Of a DNA stretch of 37,446 bases, positions 1 to 27,107 are shown one piece after another. The stretch is from Treponema sp. (GTDB lineage: Bacteria; Spirochaetota; Spirochaetia; Treponematales; Breznakiellaceae). Location: positions 1 through 37,446 of the forward strand of contig WQWU01000024.1 of assembly GCA_009785215.1 (NCBI GenBank). The letters run 5' to 3'. Under the pieces are notes generated by a model that was not told the DNA's origin, did no database searches, and saw nothing but the letters and a program-made list of their open reading frames with translations. The translations under genes were made by a program, and so were the position numbers. How positions within the stretch are numbered: position 1 is the first letter of the stretch; each line of letters begins with the position of its first letter.

Positions 1-119
1 ATTATATTAAAACATGGAATAAATCCGGACGCTCATTTATTTGGACAAAAACATCTAAAGAGATTCTTGCTAAAATTAATAAGGCTAAATCATTTTGATA
101 TTTGTTATTTACAGAACAC
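1..119 (+). mobile_element. Right end of an IS630-family insertion sequence
   Basis: The left edge of the window holds the last part of a transposase gene (stop at 96-98) followed by a terminal sequence ending at 119. Read inward from 119 on the minus strand, the end begins GTGTTCTGTAA and is flanked by TA (120-121) inside a CTAG. IS630/Tc1-mariner elements are known to use TA targets, and CTAG is a known preferred target of IS630. The end splits a lipoprotein gene on the minus strand. The left end lies outside the window, so length and flanking duplication cannot be verified here. Confidence 0.75.
3..98 (+). CDS. IS630-family transposase, C-terminal fragment (cut by window edge)
   Basis: Only the last 31 codons are inside the window; the gene continues to the left. 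The readable tail includes the stretch SFIWTKTSKEILAKINKAK, which resembles the usual IS630-family transposase C-terminus (F-x-W-T-K-T-x-x-E-I-L). The catalytic DDE residues are not in view. The stop codon lies about 20 bases before the element's terminal repeat, as is usual when the transposase reads toward the right end. Whether the full gene is intact cannot be judged. The family call is by recall of the C-terminal motif and is supported by the TA-flanked end. Confidence 0.7.
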   Translation, partial: YIKTWNKSGRSFIWTKTSKEILAKINKAKSF

Positions 120-330
120 TAGTAGTAGCTGTTTGTCTGGCTAAAGACGAATTTTGCAAATTTGCATCGCCAACTCCCCAAATTTCATCTGGCTGCGGCA
201 TTTCATTAAACCAGGATGGTACAATCTGCAGATTTGCAGCAGGTGCGGGAGATGCCGAAGGCACAGAGGCACAACTAAGTGCAAACATCACAATTAAAAC
301 AACAACGAACAATACAAAAATCTTTTTCAT
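109..330 (-). pseudogene. LPP20-like lipoprotein, truncated by the IS630 insertion
   Basis: Seventy-three residues remain. The N-terminus is a lipoprotein signal peptide with the lipid-attachment Cys in FALSCAS (about residue 20), then a low-complexity Ser/Pro/Ala linker, then PSWFNEMPQPDEIWGVGDA, which matches the start of LPP20-type domains (P-x-W-x...-D-x-I-x-G-V-G-x-A). The domain stops after about 30 residues. The final codons (AGT GTT CTG TAA) come from the terminal repeat of the IS, so the element itself supplies the stop codon. A good Shine-Dalgarno (AAAGGAG) precedes the ATG. It lies 40 bases downstream of a longer LPP20-like gene and was probably its operon partner. An anchored fragment may still be made but should lack the domain. 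Confidence 0.75.
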
Positions 331-2604: not shown

Positions 2605-2976
2605 ATGAATGGAACATCAATAGTTTTAGACAGCGCCGCAATTTACAGCGGAGCTGCACAGGTTGTTATTGCGGTAATTCCGATTGTCGGAATTGTCATG
2701 GGTTCAGTTGTGATTTTTTTCTATCTTTTATGGAATCACCGCAGAAGAACTTTACTTATTAAAGCAGGACAGTATTCAAGGCCGGAGTTTAATCTCCTTA
2801 CTTTCAGTTTATTGTCCGGGCTTCTTTTAAGCAGCGTTGGAATCGCATTAACCGTTTTTTTAATTATAGCGGTTGAAGAGGTCTCATACGGCCTATTGGG
2901 CGGAATCATTCCGCTTTCCATGGGTATCGGTCTTTTGGCCTTTTTTGCGATAAAACGCAGTGAACGGCATAATTGA
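2605..2976 (+). CDS. Small membrane protein, DUF6249-like
   Basis: 123 residues with three predicted membrane segments (about 15-40, 66-90 and 95-117). After the first segment comes a basic loop YLLWNHRRRTLLIKAGQYSRPEF, which resembles the cytoplasmic loop of DUF6249 proteins; these are often encoded next to ECF sigma/anti-sigma pairs. Its 3' end overlaps the start of the ECF sigma gene by 17 bases, so the two are translationally coupled. A role as a membrane partner of the sigma system is likely, but the biochemical function is unknown. Confidence 0.6.
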   Translation: MNGTSIVLDSAAIYSGAAQVVIAVIPIVGIVMGSVVIFFYLLWNHRRRTLLIKAGQYSRPEFNLLTFSLLSGLLLSSVGIALTVFLIIAVEEVSYGLLGGIIPLSMGIGLLAFFAIKRSERHN

Positions 2977-3556
2977 TGAATCCCAGCCCGGCAAAAACGA
3001 GGCTGAAGTTAACGATCAGTTAATTGTTAATCAGATCGTTTCAGGGCAGAAAGATCTTTTTCGTTTATTAATACGTCAGTACGAAAAAGCAGTCTACGGT
3101 ATGGGATTAAGTTTTTTTCGCAATTCGGAAGATGCTTCCGATTTTGCGCAGGAGGTTTTTTTAAAAGCCTACCGGAGTCTTTCACGTTTTGAAGGAAGGA
3201 GCCGGTTCTCGACATGGCTTTATAAAATTGCCTATAATACAGCATTAAACGAGGTAAACAGAAGAAAAGAGTATCACAGCCTTGCAGAAGAAGAAGCTGA
3301 TAAACTTGTCAGTCACGGAGATACTCCGGAACGGATAGCACTTAGAAACGCTGCAAGGGAATCTGTTCAAGCTGCCATAAAGGAATTGCCTGAACGCTTC
3401 AGAATTTGCGTTGACCTTTTCTTTTTTTACGATCGTTCATATATAGAGATTGAGGCAATTACAGGTATTCCTGTAAATACTATAAAGTCTCATGTATTTA
3501 GGGCGAAAATTATACTGAGAGATAAACTTGATCAGTTAAAAAGGAGTGCGGAATGA
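2960..3556 (+). CDS. ECF-type RNA polymerase sigma factor (RpoE-like)
   Basis: 198 residues with the two domains of an ECF (group 4) sigma factor. Region 2 (about 25-95) includes DASDFAQEVFLKAYRSLSRF and STWLYKIAYNTALNEVNRRK, which bind core polymerase and the -10. Region 4 (about 130-190) includes AIKELPERFRICVDLFF and a helix-turn-helix ending NTIKSHVFRAKIILRDKL. The start is a GTG overlapping the end of the preceding membrane protein gene. The anti-sigma gene follows with a stop-start overlap. The regulon cannot be deduced from the window, though ApbE is the next gene in the same run. Confidence 0.92.
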   Translation: MNGIIDESQPGKNEAEVNDQLIVNQIVSGQKDLFRLLIRQYEKAVYGMGLSFFRNSEDASDFAQEVFLKAYRSLSRFEGRSRFSTWLYKIAYNTALNEVNRRKEYHSLAEEEADKLVSHGDTPERIALRNAARESVQAAIKELPERFRICVDLFFFYDRSYIEIEAITGIPVNTIKSHVFRAKIILRDKLDQLKRSAE

Positions 3557-26601: not shown

Positions 26602-26630
26602 ATTGTATAGGTTTTAAAGAAGGTTGACAA
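26602..26630 (-). promoter_or_regulatory. Promoter of the hnd operon
   Basis: On the minus strand TTGTCA (26625-26630), 17-base spacer, TACAAT (26602-26607). Transcription would start near 26595, giving a leader of about 20 bases that contains the GGGGGA ribosome site. It is the only promoter I can see for the ten closely spaced genes down to 16477. Confidence 0.65.
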
Positions 26631-26649: not shown

Positions 26650-26669
26650 TGCCGAAAATCCTGCTGTTA

Positions 26670-26772
26670 GTGTTCTGTAATATTCAAATGTCACAATGTA
26701 AGTTAAGGTAATTCCTTGTGCAATAAGGAATTACCGCATTTTTTATTTTGCAAACCGAATATTACAGGACAC
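26670..26772. mobile_element. 103-bp MITE related to the IS630 element
   Basis: Terminal inverted repeats GTGTTCTGTAATATTC (26670-26685) and GTGTCCTGTAATATTC (minus strand, 26757-26772) match at 15 of 16 bases. TA lies on each side (26668-26669 and 26773-26774), as expected for an IS630/Tc1-mariner target duplication. The first 11 bases equal the end of the IS630 element at 119, and 23 of the first 29 agree. It has no coding capacity and a perfect 11-bp hairpin in the middle. It is therefore a non-autonomous derivative probably moved by that transposase. Confidence 0.8.
26707..26748 (+). terminator. Intrinsic-terminator-like hairpin inside the MITE
   Basis: GGTAATTCCTT (26707-26717) pairs perfectly with AAGGAATTACC (26725-26735) around a seven-base loop, followed by GCATTTTTTATTTT. 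As plus-strand RNA this resembles a rho-independent terminator, so the element would insulate whatever it lands next to. Confidence 0.55.
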
Positions 26773-26846
26773 TAACTTTTCCTGCTCTTTATAATTAACT
26801 GGAAAATGCCGAAAATTTGATAATCTTCTTATATAAGGCGGTTGAT

Positions 26847-27107
26847 ATGGCAACAAAATGTGTCTATTGCGGAACAACAAAGTTCGGCCCTGGCTGTCCT
26901 AGCAGCTTAAATGGACTCCATAAACATAATACTGATGAAAAAAAATGCATGTTTTGCGGAAAATCCGCATATGGCAACGGATGTTTGCAGGCTCCTACAC
27001 GAAAACATATACACGGAAGCGGCGCAGGAAAATGTAAATATTGCGGAAAAATAGCAAGTAATACCATGGGTTGTCCGCATAGTCCTAACAGAAAACACGA
27101 GACCTGA
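26847..27107 (+). CDS. Three-repeat small zinc-ribbon protein, unknown function
   Basis: 86 residues made almost wholly of three repeats of about 28: C-x2-CG, then G-x-GC, then a basic P/S-rich turn and one or two His (CVYCGTTKFGPGCP...HKH; CMFCGKSAYGNGCL...HIH; CKYCGKIASNTMGCP...KH). Each repeat offers three Cys and one or two His, fitting a zinc site per repeat. No catalytic residues or signal peptide are seen. I start at the ATG at 26847, preceded by AAGGCGG, rather than 30 bases earlier. A possible role is nucleic-acid or protein binding; I do not recognise a named family. The MITE lies directly upstream. Confidence 0.75.
   Translation: MATKCVYCGTTKFGPGCPSSLNGLHKHNTDEKKCMFCGKSAYGNGCLQAPTRKHIHGSGAGKCKYCGKIASNTMGCPHSPNRKHET

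Follow-up and report, generated by a model that had tools for sequence, protein, structure and literature searches.

The Correia elements (CREE or nemis) of Neisseria are short, TA-flanked, near-palindromic MITEs found near genes, and some of them bind IHF and are processed by RNase III. The RUP repeat of Streptococcus pneumoniae is about 107 bp in size. It is related to IS630-Spn1 and gene-free, its terminal repeats fold into one tight duplex, and its mobilisation in trans is attributed to an IS630 transposase as a presumption (PMC3049150). Another small dispersed repeat of the same species, SPRITE, carries a terminator-like hairpin (PMC3049150). In the IS630/Tc1/mariner family a TA target is duplicated upon insertion: ISY100, a relative of IS630, uses a cut-and-paste mechanism with TA as its target (PMC2170065), and IS630 prefers a TA within CTAG, according to the passage of PMC2170065 that cites Tenzen & Ohtsubo (1991).

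The element described here, at positions 26670–26772 of a Treponema contig, is a non-autonomous IS630-type MITE and an ordinary one at its hydrogenase/zinc-ribbon locus. It is similar to the Correia elements in being short, TA-flanked, near-palindromic and inserted near genes, and to RUP in being gene-free with terminal repeats that form one tight duplex. RUP differs in its host and is set apart by the description of its sequence; it is not known to carry the core palindrome of the present MITE. The T tract of SPRITE is long, and this repeat occupies convergent gene ends, whereas in the present MITE the T-run is not conserved and the orientation is unbiased. In contrast to IS630 and ISY100, the element has no transposase, while its ends match the IS630 type.

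The analysed window (37,446 nucleotides) is the whole of contig 24 of a draft genome of 1.9 Mb in 54 contigs, which is 75% complete. The unit TA-GTGTTCTGTAATATTC ... GAATATTACAGGACAC-TA spans 26668–26774, and the element proper comprises 103 bp without a transposase gene. Its left terminal inverted repeat (TIR), GTGTTCTGTAATATTC, lies at 26670–26685 on the plus strand, and the right one, found by the TIR pattern search, at 26757–26772, reading GTGTCCTGTAATATTC on the minus strand; the TA target-site duplication is seen in the sequence at 26668–26669 and 26773–26774. These 16-base arms, which the earlier note had proposed together with a perfect 11-bp central hairpin and a T-rich run, are indeed present and pair at 15 of 16 positions, with one mismatch. 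The hairpin and the run are present as well: the core palindrome GGTAATTCCTT-GTGCAAT-AAGGAATTACC (26707–26735, plus strand) forms a stem of 11 Watson–Crick pairs (26707–26717/26725–26735), extended to 13 by two inner pairs in the RNA fold, and the T-rich run GCATTTTTTATTTT (26736–26749 as a feature, plus strand) begins about 3 nt past the stem, after GCA. The 18-base TIR pattern occurs at two sites in the window, both of them the MITE ends, against 0.04 expected from shuffles. The near-palindromic fold of the element is far above chance (−47.3 kcal/mol versus −17.5 for shuffled sequences, z = −9.7; both strands were folded), and Rfam gave no match within the window.

The element belongs to a dispersed family. 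The draft genome itself contains four full copies, 90–100% identical and in both orientations, hence it is not the single copy that the earlier note had named as counter-evidence. Among 60 relatives scanned, with no more than 14 candidates scored in each genome so that counts per genome are minimum values, the MITE was matched in 22, all of the same genus save one marginal hit. Most of the named genomes that carry the TIR are MAGs of termite-gut Treponema. The core palindrome alone occurs about 78 times in genome G004. We aligned 49 full copies and 25 more, i.e., 74 distinct copies from 12 genomes of the genus (termite-gut Treponema/Breznakiellaceae MAGs). The TIRs are conserved across all 74, and their arms covary. 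No match to the MITE was found in the phage and plasmid collections, and our literature search found no described MITE of such kind for Treponema.

Some copies show further rearrangements. In G004, head-to-tail arrays occur (C141:589-822, C52:7792-7922, C75:6673-6803, and C204:615-826), where core palindromes or MITEs are 105–106 bases apart. MITEs without the hairpin are rare; those at loci L246, L248, and L249 lack exactly the 32-base hairpin module; their junction is identical in different sublineages, and no flanking direct repeat was seen. At L243 (~2945-3042), another palindrome, GAGCTTTTCCCAAAACC...GGTTTTGGAAAAAGCTC, is placed inside a MITE core palindrome.

The likely parent of the family is indicated by the element ends. 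The window begins with the tail of an IS630-type transposase gene, comprising the final 31 codons and the stop codon (YIKTWNKSGRSFIWTKTSKEILAKINKAKSF; 3–98, plus strand) and truncated by the contig edge, and with the corresponding IS630 element end in a CTAG target (91–121, minus strand). This end is identical to the MITE left end at 25 of 31 positions including the TA, and positions 91–119 without it give the 23 of 29 that had been claimed from the sequence alone. The IS630 element that had been placed at the window start is therefore represented by a related end and not by a whole element, since only the last 31 codons and one end precede the contig edge. The same transposase/IS end closes contig C38, which would be expected of a repeat at which assemblies break. 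An even closer end, 27/31 identical to the MITE left end, was found in a congener (G025), so that the MITE shares its ends with transposase-bearing IS630 elements. Of 150 family genomes, 21 contain the transposase tail YIKTWNKSG..., past which the DNA mostly ends as TAGTGT(T/C)C(T/C)G..., in CTAG. A DDE_3 search of the draft genome (75% complete) was negative and gave no intact IS630, so that the partner element is represented there by the end fragment. The IS ends vary like the MITE TIRs (e.g., GTCTTATAC and GTATTATTC), and the TIR variants GTAATATTC, GTCTTATTC, GTCCTATTC, GTTATATTC, and GGAATATTC are each matched on both MITE arms. The simplest reading of these sequences is that different MITE lineages track different IS630 lineages; another reading is arm-to-arm palindrome repair.

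The target sites agree with the IS630 affiliation. When empty targets were rebuilt by joining the flanks, CTAG was obtained in 35 of 49 cases and CTAA in 8. Most copies have TA on both sides. The left TA is present in 56 of 73 copies, the others having CA (14/73) or AA or GA (3/73), on the left side only, whereas the A of the right flank is kept in 73/73. ORFs of at least 90 aa contain none of the 49 copies, compared with 59 of 88 background CTAG sites (two thirds), and insertions into coding sequence therefore appear to be lost. In 17 of 49 copies the target TA is part of a gene stop codon, which is preserved as TAG because the element begins with G. Nevertheless, stop-codon targeting was rejected, since a similar share (9/29) of the non-coding background CTAG sites has this position; the CTAG target and the loss of coding insertions suffice to explain it.

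At the locus itself, the MITE separates two divergent genes. The left neighbour, an HndA/NuoE-like gene with PF01257 (26082–26573, minus strand), opens the FeFe-hydrogenase operon and is followed leftward by histidine-kinase-like, NuoF-like, and hydrogenase genes; to the right is a gene for a zinc-ribbon-repeat protein of 86 aa (26847–27107, plus strand). The likely hydrogenase operon promoter, TTGTCA-17-TACAAT (26602–26630, minus strand), is outside the MITE. Right of the MITE, a conserved motif AAAATGCCGAAAAT (26803–26816, plus strand) precedes the zinc-ribbon gene; most relatives have this motif (elsewhere GCCGATAA) in front of the gene, and by inspection it looks like a sigma-28 −10 box. 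In a relative (G008, locus L263) the same gene order is found, with proteins 94% and 88% identical, but the 132-bp spacer has no MITE. This spacer retains the hnd −35/−10 and the zinc-ribbon motif, although its divergence near the insertion prevents the empty site from being read base by base. Together with the multiple copies, the CTAG/TA targets, and the IS ends next to a transposase tail, this orthologous spacer without the element fully supports the earlier classification as an IS630-related MITE. Two divergent promoters thus flank the MITE, and neither is supplied by it.

The earlier note had also taken the element as a candidate for a mobile insulator or promoter. In the terminator or insulator reading, rightward transcription between the two genes would be stopped by the central hairpin and its T-run. 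The stem of 11–13 pairs followed by GCATTTTTTATTTT gave one terminator-like hit, and pneumococcal SPRITE offers a precedent for a terminator-like repeat (PMC3049150), but chance alone would give 1.3 such hits in this region, the stem is AT-rich (4 G–C among 13 pairs), and the T-run comes 3 nt late. The G+C-rich stem directly before a T tract and the downstream orientation typical for an intrinsic terminator are both lacking. Only 28 of 74 copies have TTTT no more than 8 nt from the stem, the aligned G004 copies having none, and the 5′ gene shares its strand with the MITE in 24 copies and is on the opposite strand in 21. A terminator would skew both the T-run and the orientation, and neither is skewed. 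Locally, both genes point away from the element, with their likely promoters outside it, and the hairpin is therefore not reached by any known transcript. Given the unconserved T-run, the unskewed orientation, and this gene layout, we rejected the terminator or insulator and regard it as quite improbable; the core palindrome is maintained as a palindrome, not as a terminator.

Donation of a promoter is a very remote prospect. Under this proposal, the right end of the MITE would give the −35 box AGGACA to TATAAT (26790–26795) and so drive the zinc-ribbon gene. The 18-base spacing is correct, as had been noted, and the match to consensus is 10/12. However, when a −10 box (at least 5/6, spacing 16–18) was sought across MITE ends, it was found at 4 of 96, compared with 1–6 in thirteen shifted controls, which is the chance level. 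In the MITE-less relative the TATAAT position holds TATTTT, while the AAAATGCCGAAAAT-like motif nearer the gene is kept. Promoter donation was rejected on both counts.

The core palindrome, which is the most conserved part of the MITE, presents an unexpected feature: it is common to the MITE and to elements integrated beside tRNA genes. Among MITE copies it is kept and covaries, with two Watson–Crick types at three positions of the 11-pair stem and variation in the two inner pairs as well. Of 40 congeners, 27 have the pattern TAATTCCTTN{3,9}AAGGAATTA, whereas the reversed-pattern control occurs in 0 of 40. The form TAATTCCTTA-N5-TAAGGAATTA is also found outside the MITE in several genera and in viral contigs. 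Of the 33 matches in viral contigs, about two thirds show an irregular centre, with neither tRNA nor integrase, and are likely due to chance, given the size of the collection. In genomes without full MITEs the palindrome mostly follows the 3′ end of a tRNA gene (Tyr, Leu, Phe, Gln, Met, Lys, Arg, Gly, and Ala) or of tmRNA at a distance of 4–8 bases. Such loci, with distances of up to 60 bases and often a neighbouring tyrosine integrase, include L040, L045, L169, L197, L199, L229, L233, L235, L253, L254, and others; since they were picked by exact pattern, the variation at tRNA sites is underestimated. All ten of the adjoining ORFs tested encode PF00589 tyrosine integrases. At L051, L178, L188, and L232, GCACGATGCTACC-like repeats, possibly arm sites of the integrase, are present near the tRNA-side palindromes.

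Loci L253 and L254, in a complete genome of 3,855,671 bp, represent two tandem elements at tRNA-Gly with a common 551-bp att-like block, in which the tRNA 3′ end is followed by a real terminator, the palindrome, and the integrase gene. For L253, the palindrome was therefore rejected as a tRNA terminator, because a true T-tract terminator precedes it, and L043 looks similar. It is also unlikely to be the integrase crossover site, since the L253/L254 identity block starts inside tRNA-Gly and not at the palindrome. As for the MITE palindromes, half MITEs broken near the centre suggested integration sites, and this was dismissed because no integrase is present at those loci.

With rather low probability, the palindrome is a protein-binding site or a functional RNA hairpin serving both the MITE and the tRNA-lodged integrative elements, which would add to the identity of the MITE rather than replace it. 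The occurrence of exact 10-bp arms TAATTCCTTA/TAAGGAATTA away from the MITE in numerous genomes, the empty reversed control, the closeness to tRNA 3′ ends with integrase neighbours, and the place of the palindrome within the att-like block after the true terminator point in this direction. On the other hand, other tRNA–integrase junctions of the same genomes have no palindrome, some of the palindrome-bearing integrative elements possibly have a common origin, and no integrase was found within 3 kb of the scanned MITE copies, which do not resemble an integrase attachment region in this respect. With similarly low probability, the 25-base TAATTCCTTA-N5-TAAGGAATTA would be a DNA or RNA site recognised in two unrelated mobile classes of termite-gut spirochaetes, one of which, the MITE family, would carry it to dozens of sites in each genome. 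The sharing may stem from capture by the MITE, from a common binding factor, or from an independently moving hairpin.

We suggest that the element at 26670–26772 is, with high probability, one copy of an IS630-type MITE family in one genus of termite-gut treponemes, moved in trans and neutral at this place. An IS630-type transposase would be supplied in trans, e.g., by elements like the one at 3–121 of the window, would bind the terminal repeats and excise the MITE, and the excised MITE would be pasted into a TA, preferably within CTAG, with duplication of the TA. At the hydrogenase/zinc-ribbon spacer, the insertion would have occurred between both promoters. Such mobilisation and the neutrality of the MITE in this spacer are most likely.

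These results add to the Breznakiellaceae a well-populated IS630-type MITE family for which the likely parent ends are known, and remove a claimed regulatory switch from the hydrogenase promoter. If the shared palindrome is a bound site, the spread of the MITE and the integration at tRNA sites would be linked via one factor of the host or of the elements.
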